NCBI GenBank assembly: GCA_008729055.1
Contig: SDUX01000002.1
Location: 1,492,496 to 1,556,495 of the forward strand
From: Pyropia haitanensis
Taxonomy: Eukaryota; Rhodophyta; Bangiophyceae; Bangiales; Bangiaceae
DNA: 64,000 nt
Direction of reading: 5' to 3'
Part shown: positions 25,937 to 40,709 of the stretch, piece after piece
Layout of the letters: every line of letters starts with the position of its first letter
Numbering within the stretch: position 1 is the stretch's first letter
Translations under genes and position numbers: made by a program
Notes under the pieces: generated by a model
Database searches by the model: none
What the model was told of the DNA's origin: nothing
The model's input: only the letters and a program-made list of their open reading frames with translations

Positions 25937-28882
25937 TCATGAAAGGCTAGAAAATGGCTCGCGCGGATGAAGGATGTGGTGCTTTCCACGGGAGAACAGC
26001 GTTCCGACAACAGCGTCAATGGCTCCCACGGCGACGTACCGCCTGAGCCCCCCAAAGCTCGAGAAGCAAGGCAGCCCAAAGCGAGTCTCAGGCAGACCGT
26101 ACTTGCCCAGACGGTCTCCCCCGGACCGAATACACTCAATATAAGCAAAAGCCATGGGTGTTCCGGACGCAAAAACGGCCACGTAGTGCAAGACCAGTCC
26201 GTAGACAGAGACGTTCACCGCTTGCTCCGCTCCGTCGGCACCCTCCACACGGTCGCTGGACCGCACGCGCACAAAGTTGTTTCGACGACGCGCCCCGTCG
26301 TCGTCTGACGGGCAGCTCCGTGAGCCCGCCACAACGCCATTTTCCAGTCGCACGCGAAAATATTTCAGACCGCGTATGGCGTCCGGCACCGGGTCCACAC
26401 GCTCGGCCGTGAGCACAGCCTTCATCGCGTCAAGCTCGAGTCCGGACAGCATTGCTGGCTTGCTTTGCGGAGGCAGAAGCACAAATCTTGAATTATCGCC
26501 CGATGGAAACGGAGTTTCAACCGGAGATGTTGACGGATGTATCTTGCCATTGGCCTCAGCCCACTCCTCAGGTAAAAATGTTTCACCGAACGCCGTAATC
26601 AGCTCGGCCTGATACTTGCGCGAGATGGATTTGACTAAGCTCGGGTACGCATTCGACCTTGACCCGACGAGCTTCGGAAGAGTTCCAATCAATCGTTCCA
26701 TGACAAATTGCCAGTAAGTCCAGATTGGACCACAGCTGCGCACGTTCGACGCGATGTCCAGAACAGCAGCAACTGTTGACCGGCAGAGAGGAAGCCTGGC
26801 CTCCACCCCCCCGTAAACGTGAGTGTAGTACTCGCGACAAAAGCTCTTGAAGCTGGCGTCTGCGGCCTCGACCTCGCTCAATGAAACAGGTTGAGGTCGA
26901 AACAGGATGCGACTGGCGCGTACCAAGTGCATGAGCATGTCGTACAGGGCGGGCGCCACGCGGTTGGCAAGTACAACTTCGGCCGTGCTTAACAAGAAAA
27001 ACATCCAGTCCACAGCCTTGTATGACCGGAAAGATATCGCCAAATTCCGGAGAGAACGCGCTTGAGAGCACGGCACAGTAGCCCGTGCATTGCGTAGTTC
27101 CGCCCCAATATCTGCGACAACAGCTGGAGGAAGAGCGAGGTGACTGAATTCCGCTGGACCGCCAAGCTGGCCGGAAAAAATCAACCACAGGAGGGGCGTC
27201 ACGTTCAGAAGGAGAAGGTGCATGCAGTCGTAGGGCATCAGAGAAGGTCCGACGTCCCACAAGTACTTCAGCGCCGGGTATTTAGCTCGCTGTTCAGGAC
27301 TTGGCGATAAAAACAGGGAGTATCCCTTGAAGCCTGTGCGCTTGCTCAATTCCTTAACATGGCTCTGCGGCCTGCCGTTTCGACGCGCTCCCTCAACCAG
27401 GTTAATTTGCGCGGCGACTGATGCGGCTGTGCGCCGGGGAGCTGGGCAGTTGTCCACAGCAAAGAGGACTTGGTTCGTCCTCGGGTTGACCGGCGGGTAG
27501 TACGTGTGTGACTTATAGTACACTCCGCTGAAGGCGCGGAACCGGTTCGGCTGGTACCCGTTGTGCCCGGTGGCATTCGCGATCTTATCCCCGGCGGGCA
27601 TGTCGGTGGAGATATGCAGCATGAAACCGCGGAGGGTGTGCAGCCCCTGCCTGCCCGCCACGGTCACCCCAGGCACTCCAATAGCAAGGGTGTTTAGCTC
27701 TTCCGCAATTGGGTCAAGATATGACTCCAAATCCGCCGGCTGCTTCGGTCCAGGAGTGACGCAAAGCAGTATTTGGTTGACCAGGCTCGTTCTAGAATCT
27801 GCTGGTAAGTTGAGAATTGTTGCCACGACTGGCCATCCTTGAAATCCTTGTTGTCGCCAAGCTTCAAAACCGTCGGTGGAAAGGCTGAAAGCAACGTCCG
27901 TGTCTGCTTGGAAGTAGCCTTGCTGGACTGCATTTCGGAAGTTTGAACCGTCGTACCAATCATCGATGCTGATTCTTGATTGGGATGCTCGCTGTCTCGC
28001 GTGCGCCATGCCAGCAGTCATGTCCAATCCGAGGGTTGGATCTCCCAGCATCGCTGTCAGCCACGGGATCATCGGCCAATACGTCACCTGCTTCCGAGGA
28101 GTGGTGGTGCCCGTCTTGTACCTTGCCTGCTTACATATGTCGCAGGCGTCGAGGGTGGCCCTCCCGGCCGTGAAGGCGACGCACCCAGCAGGGCAGGCAT
28201 CAAAGCGTTTTTCCCGGAGGTCGACCGCAGCGCCGGCTAGCTTCTGCTGGCGATAAGGAGAGCGGTACTTGAGCGAGTGACACTGCAGCCGTAGAATGTC
28301 CCCGACGGCCTCTCTTGAGAGATTGTGCTGCACGCTCACCGCATAAAAAACAAGGTCGTGCAAGACGTGGCGAAACTGCTCGACAGGAAGAAGGACTTGG
28401 TTTCTCTGGTCATCCCTAGTGGCAGGCGCCGGGGAGAGGTTGAGTATGTCTCTATCTTCCTCGTCGGCCACGGAGCCATTCTCAGAAATGTCCAAAAGCT
28501 CGCTCTCTTCCTCGCACTCAGCTTCCTCCGCCTCCCCACCAGCAAGGTCCAACACGCCCCCACCCGCCCAGGGACCATCGCCCTCATCGGCCTCGCCACT
28601 ATCATCGTCCTCCCATTCACCGTCAGCACCCCCAACATCTCCAGCAGCCCCTCCCACCGCCGGTAGCCCAGCCCCCACCACAGGCTGCTCCCTCATCTCT
28701 GCTCCTCGTCCACCGTCTCCCGTTCGTTCGCCATCGACAGCGCGCTCGTCACCGCTTGCGCGTGCAGCGAAAGGTCGCTTGCGACCCATGTGGACAAAGA
28801 ATGTTGAACGGCTGACGAGAGCAGGTCCCCTTGCGCCGTCATCGGTGCAGCGCCAGCATCCGCACAGGCGCCTCTCCGACAT
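25937..28882 (-). CDS. Tnp2-like DDE transposase
   Basis: About 981 residues, intact. The ATG at 28880-28882 gives MSERRLCGCWRCTD followed by SRSTFFVHMGRKR, a CxCxxC...H zinc-binding start seen in Plavaka/Tnp2 transposases; the frame stays open to 28999. An acidic stretch is followed by HNLSREAVGDILR, a second Cys-rich segment (CPAGCVAF ... ACDICKQARY) and the RNase-H-like core. Candidate catalytic residues are the Asp in FSLSTDGFEAW, the Asp in FAVDNCPAP and the Glu in WQFVMERLIGTL, in the D-D-E order of this family. The stop TGA is at 25937. Codon composition is near 50-55% G+C, unlike the host genes, supporting separate mutational history. It would cut and paste the element by its terminal repeats. 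Confidence 0.9.
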   Translation of the reverse strand: MSERRLCGCWRCTDDGARGPALVSRSTFFVHMGRKRPFAARASGDERAVDGERTGDGGRGAEMREQPVVGAGLPAVGGAAGDVGGADGEWEDDDSGEADEGDGPWAGGGVLDLAGGEAEEAECEEESELLDISENGSVADEEDRDILNLSPAPATRDDQRNQVLLPVEQFRHVLHDLVFYAVSVQHNLSREAVGDILRLQCHSLKYRSPYRQQKLAGAAVDLREKRFDACPAGCVAFTAGRATLDACDICKQARYKTGTTTPRKQVTYWPMIPWLTAMLGDPTLGLDMTAGMAHARQRASQSRISIDDWYDGSNFRNAVQQGYFQADTDVAFSLSTDGFEAWRQQGFQGWPVVATILNLPADSRTSLVNQILLCVTPGPKQPADLESYLDPIAEELNTLAIGVPGVTVAGRQGLHTLRGFMLHISTDMPAGDKIANATGHNGYQPNRFRAFSGVYYKSHTYYPPVNPRTNQVLFAVDNCPAPRRTAASVAAQINLVEGARRNGRPQSHVKELSKRTGFKGYSLFLSPSPEQRAKYPALKYLWDVGPSLMPYDCMHLLLLNVTPLLWLIFSGQLGGPAEFSHLALPPAVVADIGAELRNARATVPCSQARSLRNLAISFRSYKAVDWMFFLLSTAEVVLANRVAPALYDMLMHLVRASRILFRPQPVSLSEVEAADASFKSFCREYYTHVYGGVEARLPLCRSTVAAVLDIASNVRSCGPIWTYWQFVMERLIGTLPKLVGSRSNAYPSLVKSISRKYQAELITAFGETFLPEEWAEANGKIHPSTSPVETPFPSGDNSRFVLLPPQSKPAMLSGLELDAMKAVLTAERVDPVPDAIRGLKYFRVRLENGVVAGSRSCPSDDDGARRRNNFVRVRSSDRVEGADGAEQAVNVSVYGLVLHYVAVFASGTPMAFAYIECIRSGGDRLGKYGLPETRFGLPCFSSFGGLRRYVAVGAIDAVVGTLFSRGKHHILHPREPFSSLS

Positions 28883-29214
28883 GGCGCAGGGGGGGGGGGG
28901 GCAAGCCGGTGTGAGGGCCAGTGGGGGTGGATGGGGGTCGGCAATCAAAGCGCGGCACAATGGATTGACGACTGATGGGATCACCGTTGGCACGCCCACC
29001 AGCTGCGTATTTACTTCCTCTCGGACGCTGCCTCGGACGAGTCTCCGAGAACGGGTTGGTGGAAGGCACCGCCATCATCGCACGACAGCCAATGAGGAGA
29101 AAGTGTAAGCCTCCACTGCCCGGCCATAACGCCAGGCCGATTGCTAGGACTTTCTGGATCAAGATGGATGGTTCTGGAAGGCTCGCCACTGGACAGTTCT
29201 GGAACACTTCTCTG

Positions 29215-32596: not shown

Positions 32597-35500
32597 CTAA
32601 GGTGGAGCAGCGGCAGGCGCAGCAGCAACTTCACGCTCGCGCGCCGCGTCCGCAGCCATGGTAGCCGCCACTGAAGCCGCCCGTTCCTCCCGCTTTCGCA
32701 GGTCCCTCCAATGAAGCCCGCACGCTGCAGCCCCGACAGCCCGACACACAGCCCACCCAGAAACGACAGCGCACCGCCCAAAACGCCAAGGAGCGCCGAC
32801 ACCCAGGCGCGAAAGGTCGCATGTTAGCGCACGCCCATCCGGCAGGGACGCCAAGCAGGGAGTCGGCCTCACGGCAGACGTCGCCACTAATCCGCGCCGA
32901 ACAGAGACTTGCTCCCTTACCAGACCCTCCTTCCTCCGCTCGCCCTCCCCCAGCAAACGTACCGTTGCAAAGCGTCGCCCTCCCGGCAGGCCCAGGCCGG
33001 TGGCAGGGGGTAGTGCTCGTCCCACACCGCTGACAATTCCACGGCGGCTTGGCCTTGCGCTGGGACGACCGCGGCGTAGGGACCTCCACCACCGGCTCTG
33101 CGACGACGGCAGGGGCCGCCGCAGCCGCGGCGACAGCCGGCGCCCGAGACTCGTTGGCAGCCACCTCGGCGGCCATCTCCTCCCGGAGCAGTTGGTGCCT
33201 CCAGTTCATCCCACACTCTGGAATCCAAGGCGCCCCACACTCATCCACCCGATGACACGGACACACAATACACCACCAACGAGCAGGCATGGTGGGAACG
33301 CAGACCAGAACGACAGTGGCGCCCAATGTCAGTCTGCAAACGCTCCTCCACAGCGTCGACTCTCAAGGGAGGGCACAGGCCCCGCTCCACAGAAACCAAT
33401 CCCAGCGCTACCCACCACCCCCTCTCCCCCCTGCGTTGGCCATCCTCCCCCCGCCCCTACTATCCAAAAAAAAACAAAAAAACGCACCGTTGCAAAGCGT
33501 CTGGTTCCCGCTCGGCCCCGCACGGCGGCAAACCGTTTCGGAAGTACCACACTGCGCACACCGCCACGGGTCCCCAATCTCCCGCGCTACAGCTGCGGTG
33601 GCAGCGGTCACCGTCTCCAACGCAGCGTCTGCATCCGAGACGGCGGCCAGCTGCACCCGCATCTGCTCGTCCCTCCACTTGAGCCCACAAGCTGTACTCC
33701 GCCGGCCGCCACCCACGCATCCACCCCACATACACACACAGGCACACCGCGCCACCCACACAGGCGCAAAGACGAAGCGCATGGGCGAAACGTGTGGATA
33801 GAGGTCCGTTAGAATCTAGCGCGCGACAAGAGTGGACAGCCATGAGCAGTCCGCGGGATGCAAGTCCACCAAAAAAACAAGCGGAGAGGCCCTCCCACCA
33901 GCACCCCTGACCCCCTCCTCCACCGCGCCCCCCTCTACAACGTACCATTGCAAAGCGTGCCCATCCCGCCTGGCCCAGGGCGGTGGCAAAACATGTCGCG
34001 CGACGAGCAATGCTGGCACTGCCACGGCTCTGTCGCCCCCCGCTCTGGGGCGACCTGGGCAGTGGCAGCGGCGGCCGCTGCGTCATCCAGCTGCTTCTGC
34101 ACGGCGGCAGCTGCCACAGCGACATCCGTGTCCAGCGCAGCCTCGGCAGCGCGCGCAGCCTGCCGCTTCTCCCGCTTCAGCTGATCCTTCCACCGCAGCC
34201 CACACGCTGCAGCGTCGAGTATCACGCAACCGCCCGACCGCGTGCCCGACCGCGCGCCCGACCGGCAAACCATGCCAGTACCGCGCAAAGGAGACAACCA
34301 AAAGCACGCGGGGAGGGGATATCCGTCAGTCGCCAGCCTCTCCGTGATAAAGGCCACCCGGCCGCCCACTCACGAAAGAGAAGCCAACAGCAGCACCTCC
34401 CCGCACTCACTCATCATGGACAGCCCCCCAAAGAGCAGCCCACCCCCCCTGTCACCAACCACTTCCCCCCCTCGTACCATACCCCCCTCTGACGACAGCG
34501 TACCATTGCAGAGCGTCGATCTCCCGCCCGGCCCCGAACGACGACAGGTGGTGGACGTGACAGTGCACCGCAGGCATTCCCACGGCTCAGATGCCTTCCG
34601 AGAGGTGGCAGGGAAAGGGGCAGCAGCGGCGGCTACCGGCTGCGCGGGAGCCACGTCGGCAACGTCGGCCGCCGGCTCGTACACAGCGTCTGCATTCGAG
34701 ACAGCGGCCAGCTGTTGCTGCATCTGCTCGTCCCTCCACTTGAGGCCACAAGCTGCATCCCATACGGCCGCCCCACCGCGTGCAGCCCATCGAACAAACC
34801 GTGCCACCATCGGACAGATGCAAAATGGGAGAGCAGAGGAGCAACGCTCGGCAAACATGACCGTCAGTGGCTGCCACGCTGCAAGCGCGCCCGACCACGA
34901 TGAGGCAGCATTCCGACAGCCAGTTGCACAATTGCCACACCACCAGAACAGCAACACACTCGCTCCGCCGCTCTCCAAGCTCCCAGCCCCCCCCCAGCAA
35001 GCTCCCCACCACCCCCATCGCCCACCAACCATACCATTGCACAGTGTGCCCATCCCACCTGGCCCAGGGCGGTGGCAAAACATGTCGCGGGACGAGCAAT
35101 GCTGGCACTGCCACGCCCCTGTCACTGCCCGGTCCGTCGCGGGTTGCGAGGCGGCCGCCGCCATCGACTCATCCAGCTGCTTCTGCACCGCGGCAGCCGC
35201 CACAGCGACGTCCGTATCCAGGGCAGAATCCGCAGCGCGCGCAGCCTCCCGCCGCTCCCGCTTCAGCTGGTCCTTCCACTTCAACCCACAGGCTGCAGCC
35301 TCAGGCGCCACACGCCAGACCATTCATTCAACCGCCCACCATCCGCCCATTCATCCATGAATCCGTCCAGCCAGCCATCCATTCGTCCAAACCAAAGACA
35401 AACAATCGCTTCTCCAACGAGGCGGAGCAGAGCGGACAAGGAGGAAGCCACGAGTAAAGCAGAATGTCCGTCAGAAGAGGGCTCCACCGCGAGAGAGACT

Positions 35501-38500
35501 GTACAGGACTGCAGCCAGGCCCCCACAGGCGGAGAAACAAGGCAGTGCGTCCTCGCACACAGCAAGCAAAGGAAGAAGAAAGCGGCAACCGCCGCCCACG
35601 CACGTCCCAGCTGCCGGACAGTCACATACCGTTACAAAGCGTCTTCTTCCCGTTCGGTCCGTTGCGCTTGCACGGCGTGTAGGCCACGCCGCACCGCAGA
35701 CAGCTCCACGGCTCCTGCGCGGCAGCGGCGGCCGCGGCGGCGTCAGCCGCCTCTGACGGAGCCTCTGCCGGCCACTGCTCCTGCGGCTGCTCGTCCCTCC
35801 ACTTGACACCACAGCCTGCAAGCGCCGAGCGTCCCCCACCCGCCCGCCCCATCCCCGCCACCCACAAACGCCACCGCCACCCGAGACGCAGCGGAGGTAG
35901 GCACGGCCAAAACAACAGCGATTCAAGGTGATCGTCAGCGACAAGTCCGTGAGCCAACTCTGGCCCCTCCCGTCCCCCCCACCCCTCCCGTACGCCCCCC
36001 CAGCAGACGTACTGTTGCACAGCGTTCCCATGCCGCCCGGGCCCGGCCGGTGGCAAAAGGAGTCGGACGTGCCGCACTGCTGGCACTGCCACGCGCCTGA
36101 AACCGCCTGCTCCACAACCTCCTGTGCCGTCCCAGCAGCCGCTGCAGCGTCCGTCTCCATGGCCACGTCCCTATTAGACGTGCCGGCCAGGTGCTCCCGC
36201 ACCTGCTCAGCCGTCCAAGTCAGGCCACACACTACAATCCCAACCGCCCCGACGCCGCCCGCCCCAGTCCCAAAAAAACAAACGAACACCGCGCGCCGGC
36301 AAGCGCAACAGGGTCACAGTGGCAACCAAATGATCGTCAGCACGTGCGTTGCCTTGCACACCAACACACAGAGTACAGCAGCGCACAAGGGGCGGCCAGT
36401 CCACCGGCTGCCACTTGTCCAAACGGTGCAAAAGAGCAGGCGACCCCCCCTTTTCAAAAACCCCCCAGCCATCCCTGGCACCCCCCCGCTCTACCGCAAG
36501 TCCACCATCTCTCCCCACCGCAAACGTACCTTCGCACCGCTCCCCGTTTCCGCCTAGCCTCACGCGGGGGCTAGGCAAGTCGGGTGTGGCGCACTGAGGG
36601 CACCACCAGGGGTCCGCCCCGCCAAGCTCGGACGAGTGCTCGGACGCCGTGTCTGCCATGGCAAGAGGCCCGGCCGCCGCGTTGCCGGCGGCCGGCGGCT
36701 GCGCGGCGGGGGCGGCGGACGCGGCGGCGGGGCGGGGGAGCGGCGTCGCCCCGTCGGCAGACGCCCCCACCGGCGGCGGCGGCGCCGGCCCCGCCGCCGC
36801 CGCGTCGAGCGCGGGGCTGCCCGACGGGGCGGGGGAGTCGGCGGCGGCCACCACCTCTGCAGCGGCCGCCTGTGCCTCTGCAGTGGCGGCAGACACCGCA
36901 GCCGCCGCGAGCACCGCGCCGTCGGCAGCCTCCTGTGCCGGCGGGGGGGAGGCCCCAGCGGCGGGCGCCGCCGCCGCGCCGTCGGCAGCCGCCTCTGCGG
37001 GCGGTGGCGCGGGCGCAGCGGCAGGCGCCTGGCCGGTACCGTCGGCAGCCGCTGCTGCGGGTGGGGGGGAGGACGCGGCGGAGGACGCGGCGGCACGCGC
37101 AGGCGGCGTGGCCATCACCAGCCGGGGGTCGTTCCGCAGCGCCGCCGCCCGCTCCTCCCGCTTTTGCTCGTCCCGCCACTTCAGCCCGCACGCTGCGACG
37201 CCAACGACACCCCACGTCCGCCCGTCCCGCGCGGACCACACACCGCCGTACAGCCATCGTGGGGACGCGCGGAGCACAACCAGGAGCACAGCAAAGGAGA
37301 CGGCGTGCGTCAGCGCACGCTCCACCACAAAGGGTGACCCACCCACCGCGCGGCAGCCCGCCACCCCACAGCCCCTTCCCGCCGCATCCCCCCCGCGCAC
37401 GTACCATTGCACAGCGTGCCCTTCCCCCCCGGCCCCGGCCGGTGACACGGGGTGACACACTTGAGGCACCGCTGGCACCGCCACGAGCCCGTCGCGCCCC
37501 GCAGCGACGCGCGCCCACGCGGGAGCCCCCGCTGCCGCTCAATGGCGGGCCCAAGGGCGGTCGCGACGGCACCGCCGAGCCCCGCCGCCCCCGCCCGCTG
37601 GCCGCCCCAGCCGCCCCCGCCGGCCTGCACGTACGCGTCATCCGCAGCAGACGACGCGGCCGACGCGTCACCGGCAGGGGCGGCGGCAAAGGCGGCCGCC
37701 TCCTCCCGCAGCTGCTCGTCCCGCCACCTGATCCCACACGCTGCGGGCGCCGCGCCGCGCAGCCGGGCAAGCGCAGCCGGGTCCAGGCGGGAATGCCAGC
37801 GACAAAAAGAGAGAAGCCGCCGGTCAGTGCCTGCCGCGGCGGCGCCACCCACACGCACCCAAACCGCACGCCGCATCCCCCCCTACGCCCACACACACAC
37901 GCCCCGTCGCGAGGTCGTCCCAATCCCCCCCCCCCCGCCCCCAAAACGCATCCGCCCCCTCCCCCCCCCCCCAATCCCACACGCCCACCACCGTCCATAC
38001 CATTGCACAGGGTGCCCCTGCCGGCCGGCCCCGGGCGCTGACAAAACGTGTCGCGGGTGCCGCAGTGCTGGCACCACCACTGGGCGGCCCTGGCCGGCGC
38101 GGGTAGGCCCCCTGCCGCCGCCGCCGCCGCCGCCGCCGCCGGGGCGGCGGGCACCCGCGACCACGGCGCCGCCGCCGCCGCGGCAGCGGGCACCCGCGAC
38201 CACCCCGCCGCCGCCGCCGACGGCGCCGCCGCCGCGGCGGCGGGCACCCGCGACCACCCCGCCGCCGCCGCCGACGGCGCCGCCGCCGCCGCCGGGGCGG
38301 CGGGCACCCGCGACCACCCCGCCGCCGCCGCCGACGGCGGCGCCGCCGCCGCCGGGGCGGCGGGCACCCGCGACCATGGCGCCGCCGCCGACGGCGCCGC
38401 CGCTGCGGCGGCGGGCACCCGCGACCACCCCGCCGCCGCCGCCGACGGCGCCGCCGCCGCCGCGGCGGCGGCTGGCACCCGCGGCCACGCCGGCGGCGCC

Positions 38501-38561
38501 GCGGCGGCGGCGTGCGGCGGCGGCCACGCCCCCCCCCCCCCCCCCCCCCGCCCCCCCCCCC

Positions 38562-38592
<31 letters not shown>

Positions 38593-39304
38593 CGCCTCGG
38601 CGGCGGCCGCCTCGAGCACCGCCGCGTCCGCGGCGGCGGCCGCGGCGCGGCGGCGGGCGGCCGCGGCGGCCGCGGCGAGCGCGTCGGGGCCCATCGGGGG
38701 GGCCACCCCCGCCCCCGCCGCGGCCCGCGCGGCGGCCAGCCGCTCCGCCCGCCCCTGCGGGTCCCGCCACATGCTGCCGGCCGACGCTCGGCCGCCGCCG
38801 CCGCCGCCGCCGCCGCCGCGGCGGGTCGCGGGCCACCACGCACCGCCGGCGGCTGCGCCGCAGACGCCCACGCCGCCGCGGCGGCAGCAGAGCCGCGCCA
38901 CGGGCAGCCGGCGGCAAACGGCACACGGCGGTTGGCAAGAGGAGAGCGTGGGCGTCAGCGTGTGTGCACCGCCGCGGGGGGGTTAACGGCCGCCGGGAGG
39001 CCACACGCGCCGCGGGGGCCACCCCATCCACACGCCCGCCGGCCGGCGCCGCCCCCGCGCCCACCACACCACACCCCCCCCCCCCCGGCGTCGCCGTCCT
39101 CCCCAAGGCAAACGTACCTTTGCACAGCGTCGCCCGCCCGTCTGGTCCCAGCACGCGACAAGTCGTCCCTGCCGTGCCGCACCGCGAGCAGCGCCAGGAG
39201 GGTGGCGTCGGTCGGGACGCGGGCGTAGCGCGGGCCGAGCACCGTCGCCCGCCGCCGGGCGCGAGCTGGTGGCGCGCGCGCCCTCCCCCCCCCCCTCCCC
39301 CCAT
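32597..39304 (-). CDS. Eleven-finger GATA-like zinc finger protein, 12 exons
   Basis: Minus-strand exons: 39304-39118, 38786-38001, 37740-37405, 37192-36530, 36231-36013, 35815-35630, 35292-35035, 34752-34504, 34206-33946, 33691-33488, 33217-32963, 32724-32597. Each exon ends with a half finger (for example WQCQHCSSRDMFCHRPGP then GTLCN) and the next starts with the other half (CGLKWRDEQ). Splicing makes C-x2-C-x18-L-C-N-A-C-G-L-x-W, the spacing of plant-type GATA fingers. All eleven introns (197-344 bp) split the codon of the residue between CN and CG, in phase 1. The GATA core TPLWR is replaced by x-x-C-H-R-P, so DNA recognition may differ. The first finger (LCK, second half damaged) and the fourth are degenerate. 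Linkers are Ala-rich with possible coiled coil. The final residues are REREVAAAPAAAPP. The start is uncertain: the frame stays open upstream to an ATG at 39712. Nuclear or nucleic-acid binding is inferred. Confidence 0.8.
33218..35292 (-). repeat. Tandem duplication of a two-exon module inside the finger gene
   Basis: Exons 35292-35035 and 34752-34504 correspond in order to exons 34206-33946 and 33691-33488. The first pair shares KWKDQLKRE then ALDTDVAVAAAAVQKQLD and WQCQHCSSRDMFCHRPGPGG; the second pair shares the start CGLKWRDEQM and LAAVSxADA. Introns fall at equivalent places. This is a block duplication of roughly 1 kb. Confidence 0.8.
36481..36610 (-). other. Degenerate finger 4 of the GATA-like array
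   Basis: Reads PWWCPQCATPDLPSPRVRLG then NGERCEG at the exon end 36530. The first Cys pair is kept, but CHRPGP has become SPRVRLG and LCN has become RCE. The second half (VCGLTWTAEQ, from 36231) keeps its Cys. Confidence 0.65.
37999..38100 (-). other. GATA-like finger 2, first half, with exon end at 38001
   Basis: Reads WWCQHCGTRDTFCQRPGP then GRGTLCN and G, followed by donor GTATGG. The second half, ACGIRWRDEQLREE, begins at 37740 after a CAG acceptor. It is a representative intact finger with both Cys pairs. Confidence 0.8.
38140..38515. repeat. Minisatellite of about 60 bp within the second exon of the finger gene
   Basis: Around seven tandem copies of a unit reading GWSRVPAAAAAAPSAAAA on the minus strand. 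Individual copies differ in the length of the GCC tract. It expands the linker between fingers 1 and 2. Confidence 0.85.
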
Positions 39305-39810: not shown

Positions 39811-40052
39811 TTCCCGTCTAGTCGTCCTACGATCGATCGTCACTGCGCATCGCCTCTTCCACCCTCCGCCCGCATTCATCAGGCTTCCGCGTACATCCCC
39901 TCATATTGTTGACGCACCGTGAGGCCCCACCTACTCCCCACCTGATCCCATCTTTCCCTCCCCCTACGCCTGTTCACCGCTCTAGGTGCCGTCCCCCCAG
40001 CGAGCACGCAGTCGCGCCCTCCTCCCCCCTCGCATCCCCTCTCATCCCCACG
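39811..40052. other. Upstream region of the PPOX-like gene
   Basis: Pyrimidine-rich leader running into the ATG at 40053, without an evident additional gene. Confidence 0.3.
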
Positions 40053-40709
40053 ATGCCCCCTCCTCCACCCCTCCCGCCCTGGCGCGCGCCGCTGGCGGCG
40101 GCGATAGCCGCGTGCACCGGCCCGCTGCCGTCGGTGGGCGCCCTCGCGACGGTCACCGCCGCGGGCACCCCCGCGGTGCGCAGCGTCAATGTGCGCGGGT
40201 GGCCCGAGCCGTCCACCTACACCTTTATCAGCGACGGGCGGTCGGCCAAGGCGGCGGAGCTGGCCGCGACCGCCGCGACCGAGCTGTGCTTCCACTTCCC
40301 CGACACCCGCGAGCAGTACCGCCTGTCTGGGGAGGCGGTGGTGTTGGGTCCGGCGCCGCCGGGGGAGGCGGGTGGGGGCGGCGGAGGGGGGGGAGCGGCG
40401 GCTTGCGGCAACGACGGCGCGCGCCCCGGCGGTGCCCGCTCGACGGCGTGGCGGGGCCTGGCTGCCGGCGCCCGCGAGTGGTTCTTTTGGGGGCCCCCCG
40501 GCGCGCCGCTGGGCACCGGCCGCCCGTCGGCGGATGCGGCGCGGGAGGGGGTGGCGGCGGACACGCCGCCCGACGCGTTTGTGGTGGTGGAGGTGCAGGT
40601 GGTCCGCGCGGAGCGGCTGCAGCTGGGCGTCACCCCTTTTGTGCGCACGGTGTACGAGGCAGGGCAGGGGGAGGAAGGGGGGTGGTCTGTCGTAGAGGTC
40701 AACCCGTGA
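40053..40709 (+). CDS. Pyridoxamine 5'-phosphate oxidase-like FMN-binding split-barrel protein (Alr4036 type)
   Basis: A 218-residue intronless frame. The ATG at 40053 (ACGATGC) gives MPPPPPLPPWRAPLAAAIA; the in-frame sequence upstream is Pro/Ser-rich and judged leader. Family marks in order: ALATVTAAGTPAVRSVNVRG, TYTFISDGRSAKAAELAATA, then ATELCFHFPDTREQYRLSG, and after a Gly-rich insertion WRGLAAGAREWFFWGPPGAP. The C-terminal segment FVVVEVQVVRAERLQLG and WSVVEVNP closes the barrel. The pattern RSxK..(E)LCFHFP..REQ(Y)RLSG is typical of the Alr4036/PF12766 branch present in cyanobacteria and plants. It probably binds FMN; whether it oxidises pyridoxamine phosphate or another substrate is unknown. 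Confidence 0.85.
   Translation: MPPPPPLPPWRAPLAAAIAACTGPLPSVGALATVTAAGTPAVRSVNVRGWPEPSTYTFISDGRSAKAAELAATAATELCFHFPDTREQYRLSGEAVVLGPAPPGEAGGGGGGGGAAACGNDGARPGGARSTAWRGLAAGAREWFFWGPPGAPLGTGRPSADAAREGVAADTPPDAFVVVEVQVVRAERLQLGVTPFVRTVYEAGQGEEGGWSVVEVNP

Follow-up and report, generated by a model that had tools for sequence, protein, structure and literature searches.

GATA factors with one or two zinc fingers are textbook regulators; it is C2H2 fingers that are used in bulk. In canonical DNA-reading GATA factors a Trp at loop position 8 is the rule, and a basic tail follows the finger. Loop position 7 is occupied by Leu in animal-like and by Glu in plant-like GATA factors, according to one report (PMC7457929). 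Another describes an intron within the GATA finger of nematode ELT-2 and ELT-3, 1 bp after the third Cys codon (PMC7712238). Here we describe a gene on the minus strand of a 64,000-nucleotide stretch of the red alga Pyropia haitanensis (hereafter the window; part of contig C11 in a genome assembly of 52.9 Mb and 136 contigs). The evidence supports a single gene that would code for a protein of ~1,200 residues with ten four-Cys GATA-type fingers plus one broken finger. As in ELT-2 and ELT-3, introns lie inside the fingers just past the third Cys, here 4 bp rather than 1 bp after it; the nematode proteins have one or two GATA domains and no array. With Pfam family PF00320 (type IVb, C-x2-C-x18-C-x2-C) the array shares the Cys spacing, the LCNACG core, the profile score and, for a finger of a relative, superposition on AtGATA18. 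It departs from that family in having ten or eleven fingers, against one to three in the listed proteins outside the array family, and in its Cys at loop position 7 (not Leu, Glu or Gln), the lack of Trp at position 8, mostly non-basic tails and a Trp two residues before the first Cys. Judged by sequence, the array fingers are an unusual GATA subtype. We read the gene, with a probability of about 0.6, as encoding a multivalent GATA-type array that grew by exon copying and that is a putative nuclear DNA- or chromatin-binding regulator. The nuclear, regulatory role is the less sure part of this reading.

The gene runs from 39304 to 32597 and comprises 12 exons. Eleven first-half fingers (C-x2-C-x18-C), all on the minus strand, lie between 39190 and 32963. 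Each is followed by a GT donor one base past the codon after the third Cys (10 GTA, 1 GTG), and 10 of 11 acceptors are at the expected places, with the codon after C-N and ahead of C-G split in phase 1. The eleven introns measure 197–337 nt each, over a total span of 32725–39117. Splicing gives 3732 nt and 1243 residues with zero premature stops. All nine unambiguous internal exons (exons 3–11) have a length that is a multiple of three and phase 1 at both ends. The linkers between fingers are long, Ala-rich and, by prediction, partly helical; the GC content of the window is 0.57–0.86 in 2-kb steps. Outside the array, neither strand of the window has a match to the first-half pattern with its following codon, base and GT, and 300 dinucleotide shuffles of the region yielded none, which argues that the array is not a product of chance. 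The acceptor pattern (AG/NN-TGY-GG..TGG, the slash marking the splice site) was found ten times in the array and once astray, at 28686; 500 mononucleotide shuffles gave a mean of 0.054 and a maximum of 1.

An earlier, sequence-only reading of this DNA had proposed eleven tandem GATA-like fingers, every one split by a phase 1 intron at the same codon, the spliced consensus C-x2-C-x18-CNACGLxW, and internal exons that are all multiples of three. The eleven first halves with their spacing and GATA homology, the eleven donors and exons 3–11 bear this out. It has to be amended in that only ten fingers have four Cys, finger 1 being broken and finger 4 degenerate; the acceptor of intron 1 is uncertain; exon 2 is divisible by three only with an acceptor picked for frame; and CNACGLxW is exact in just 6 of 11 fingers (3, 6, 7, 8, 9 and 11), the others having CNACGI, CEVCGL, CNSCGV or CNECGM, besides the broken finger 1. 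The looser pattern C-x2-C-x17-20-C-x2-C is present in 10 of 11 (fingers 2–11). Across these ten, the CG after the split is invariant and the Asn before it nearly so. The Pfam GATA profile scored 205.6 bits on the spliced protein, in 10 stretches, against a gathering cut-off of 26.8. In scans of single fingers, which took in all but fingers 1, 8 and 9, seven of eight exceeded the cut-off; finger 4, with CEVCG and a Ser at loop position 7, fell below it at 21.0 bits.

Three relatives bear on the integrity of the gene. The P. vietnamensis 'hypothetical protein' MMPV_009975 (P0001), an apparent orthologue on sequence comparison, is 69% identical over residues 700–1243. A single protein model covers exons 2 to 12 in the same finger order; it has eight complete fingers and lacks finger 1, finger 3 and the front of finger 4. 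A EukProt protein (P0004) contains the first half of finger 3, finger 4 with its CEVCG junction, and fingers matching 5, 7 and 8. Both are gene models, not known transcripts. A third sequence (P0005), from a separate 5685-base contig, reads collinearly through exon 11 and intron 11 without a gap. Apart from P0004 and P0005, the 24 matches of a second protein search have one to three GATA fingers of ordinary appearance, and a few of them entered the finger tree and the alignment behind the structure model; no further array relatives were found beyond Pyropia and the sources of these two among the best word-sharing candidates scored (7981 and 7993), within the length range. That what was read as one gene is a set of several short neighbours, or an artefact of assembly, is an explanation to which we give very little credence. 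C runs near 38540 could mask assembly faults, and the relatives' models are partial; the single P. vietnamensis model with its shared finger order, the joining of several units in the EukProt protein and the collinear separate contig all speak against it, and on them it was rejected. The same relatives uphold the earlier view of one gene for one multi-finger GATA protein, as does a three-finger sibling described below.

Finger 1 is broken. The in-frame acceptor (first exon base 38786) yields LCKASAGSMW, without a fourth Cys, and the acceptor that corresponds by homology to the rest (first exon base 38773) runs out of frame; by eye, the start of exon 2 resembles that of the other units minus 10 nt. 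The P. vietnamensis model begins at the corresponding point (MWTTMWRNQ), likewise without an in-frame CG. This disfavours a mere assembly slip (proteins were compared, not DNA), and it suggests that the true start codon may lie in exon 2.

The array would have grown by duplication of a phase 1-1 exon in which a linker connects the back half of a finger to the front half of the finger that follows. This unit, put forward in the sequence-only reading, is supported by all three relatives and by the three-finger sibling. Since internal exons have phase 1 boundaries at both ends, each boundary lying inside a finger, copying an exon or an exon pair would add whole fingers in frame. To this single unit can be added a second, two-exon period. 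Fingers 5–11 alternate between two types, the mean similarity being 0.496 between neighbours and 0.713 between next-but-one fingers. A difference of this size is reached by 30 of 5040 orders of fingers 5–11, by 12 of 720 orders of fingers 5–10 and by 283 of 50,000 random orders of fingers 2–11; in the P. vietnamensis protein the figure is 4 of 5040. This two-type alternation suggests that exon pairs were probably copied.

Exchange between exons would in addition keep some fingers alike. At the protein level, fingers 7 and 9 have identical first halves. The final 81 nt of exons 7 and 9 show 4 differences, all of them synonymous by eye, and the remainder of the exons differs more. Identity of the two first halves to their P. 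vietnamensis partners is only 0.77 and 0.85, and in a tree of single fingers finger 7 stands apart from the relatives' finger 7. Taken together, these observations fit gene conversion after the species split, and homogenisation between fingers 7 and 9 is likely. In the same tree, same-position fingers of different species join in five pairs (4, 5, 6, 8 and 10; starred for 4, 6 and 10); 6 of 38 forks are starred, the small number of firm forks being due to an alignment of 39 columns. Only one of 55 intron pairs was alike above z 4 (introns 1 and 10, 53 columns; 60 shuffles a pair), so it would appear that the exon copies are too old or that introns diverge fast, and intron similarity was dropped as a duplication clock. 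Whole-exon nucleotide identity (0.65–0.84 over aligned bases in 45 pairs of exons 2–11) was also set aside as a basis for history, being inflated by GC-rich Ala linkers.

How the fingers might act is suggested by their charge. In fingers 3, 6, 8 and 11 the net charge is positive both in the core (+3 to +5) and in the tail (+1 to +5). The type I fingers of the alternation (5, 7 and 9) have near-neutral cores and tails, and fingers 6 and 8, of type II, are basic. On this view most of the putative DNA contact would fall to the basic type II fingers (6 and 8), with the near-neutral type I fingers (5, 7 and 9) contacting proteins or adding weak DNA contacts. A loose parallel is found in animal GATA factors, in which labour is divided between the two fingers.

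A number of observations weigh against a DNA-binding array grown in this way. At loop position 7, ten of the eleven fingers have Cys and the remaining one Ser; no finger has Trp at position 8, which is present in most listed GATA fingers outside the array family; and fingers 6 and 8 have tails (16 residues after the finger core) of net charge +4 and +5, the other nine of -2 to +2. GATA-site binding may therefore be weak or absent. Finger 10 counts as type II from its position in the alternation, yet it is non-basic (core +1, tail -1), and in the finger tree finger 3 pairs with the last finger of the P. vietnamensis protein (position 11), with fingers 2 and 11 left partnerless. The predicted structure is weak overall (mean pLDDT 63.6, pTM 0.28), and Foldseek with this model gave no match reaching E 0.001. 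The chimeric finger that the EukProt protein forms by joining exon 5 to exon 7 has a model that superposes on AtGATA18; the alignment behind the structure model had placed known GATA fingers on exactly the superposing finger. Finally, the gene was read from genomic sequence and gene models, and the automatic models of the P. vietnamensis and EukProt proteins omit some exons.

The loop and tail changes are also what would be expected of a protein–protein scaffold, in which the fingers have left DNA binding and act as many docking sites. This is the main rival, and we regard it as a real possibility of clearly lower probability. The long helices predicted after the fingers favour it, and a docking example is provided by PDB 1y0j, whose title names the GATA-1 N-finger with Friend of GATA (FOG). 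In structural comparison, DNA-binding GATA chains scored like this GATA-1/FOG finger, and DNA binding and docking were not separated. Arguing against a scaffold, the four fingers named above keep positive cores and tails, and fingers 2–11 keep the invariant CG and the nearly invariant Asn.

A decaying array, in which duplication has run ahead of selection and fingers are being lost from the gene, appears improbable. It could account for the lost Cys of finger 1, the degenerate finger 4 and the fingers missing from the relatives' models. It would also fit the comparison with the separate contig, in which conservation of exon 11 barely exceeds that of intron 11 (77 of 84 identical, against 70 of 79 for the intron read in the same frame), a further point to be set against the preferred reading. 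However, fingers are better conserved than linkers against the P. vietnamensis protein (79.1% versus 58.1%), the four differences between the ends of exons 7 and 9 are synonymous, and no premature stop interrupts the open frame.

The split-finger layout might be used and not only inherited. All 65 forward donor–acceptor joins (every pair except those into exon 2) give a sense codon in frame and unite the front half of a finger with a back half, and exon skipping could therefore yield variant finger counts and chimeric fingers. The EukProt model joins exon 5 straight to exon 7, without exon 6, and the junction passes through Thr, as the window's own bases would give (A/CC). That exon skipping actually builds a repertoire of finger numbers and chimeric fingers seems doubtful to us; exon 6 may instead have been lost there, or the gene model may be wrong.

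At least 13 GATA profile matches are listed in the same genome, none of them from the split fingers of the window. An intron interrupts four of the 13 at the codon used in the array, with acceptors assigned by eye, namely single-finger genes on contigs C3, C4 and C7 and the three-finger sibling on C10; nine are unsplit. Since three single-finger genes share the intron codon, the array is not alone in having the split. In the finger tree these three cluster apart from the array (98/90); the split either predates the array or arose more than once. The sibling (C10:3608067-3610663) has the same W-x-C-x2-C-x18-C-N split in phase 1, with internal exons of 150 and 141 nt. Unlike the array protein, it has three fingers, a long Ala/Pro-rich tail and Ala at loop position 7 of its first finger; a homologue search with it, over 2565 candidates, gave no hit at E 0.001. 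On C8, two copies lying 3.3 kb from each other (L029 and L030; C8:861079 and 864355, minus strand) encode an unsplit finger of the array subtype (WACLEC..CRRPGP..LCNACGLRF), with W-x-C and the Cys at position 7 as in the array and no intron there. A GATA-like finger on C9 (L034; C9:5972930, plus strand) lacks an internal intron and has an expanded loop separating its Cys pairs.

The sequence-only reading stated that ordinary GATA factors carry one or two fingers and knew of no described family with this architecture. The former is nearly right, a protein of the fungus Marasmius (P0006) having three. As to the latter, no described many-finger GATA family turned up in a limited search of open-access literature, itself incompletely covered, and the profile search places the fingers in the known Pfam GATA family. 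Among the matches, one ENA protein (P0016) combines two GATA fingers with a match to PF00385 (chromodomain).

The exons, all on the minus strand, are laid out as follows. Exon 1 (39118–39304) contains the putative start ATG at 39304 and the first half of finger 1 (WRCSRC..LCK), ends at the donor GTACGTTT and is outside the coverage of all three relatives. Exon 2 (38001–38786 with the in-frame acceptor, which leaves the 3' end of intron 1 uncertain) has an alternative start ATG at 38772 and holds the remnant back half of finger 1, a long Ala-rich linker and the first half of finger 2; C runs in its Ala/Gly-rich part (38530–38570) make assembly errors likely there. From here on each exon carries a back half, a linker and the next first half. 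Exon 3 (37405–37740) joins fingers 2 and 3, the first half of finger 3 being present in the EukProt protein and missing from the P. vietnamensis model, and exon 4 (36530–37192), with a long linker, joins finger 3 to the degenerate finger 4 (C..C..C-E). Fingers 4 and 5 meet in exon 5 (36013–36231), 5 and 6 in exon 6 (35630–35815), 6 and 7 in exon 7 (35035–35292), 7 and 8 in exon 8 (34504–34752), and 8 and 9 in exon 9 (33946–34206), the basic tails of fingers 6 and 8 lying in exons 7 and 9. Exon 10 (33488–33691, donor GTGCGT) joins finger 9 to finger 10 (CNECG), and exon 11 (32963–33217) finger 10 to finger 11. Exon 12 (32597–32724) encodes the back half of finger 11 and the C-terminal tail, and ends with the stop TAG at 32597–32599. 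Head to head with the array gene lies a pyridoxamine 5'-phosphate oxidase-like open frame (39906–40706, plus strand; PF12766, 62.9 bits), and ~3.6 kb from its 3' end a long open frame (25940–28999, minus strand) has a tnp2-type transposase domain (PF02992, 34.3 bits).

The occurrence of a ten-finger array in related species suggests that the GATA fold is usable in bulk, in the manner of C2H2 fingers. With an intron in each finger, the gene clearly illustrates how a domain array can grow through the copying of exons whose limits do not coincide with those of the domain, and its layout predicts that skipping an internal exon would still leave whole fingers.
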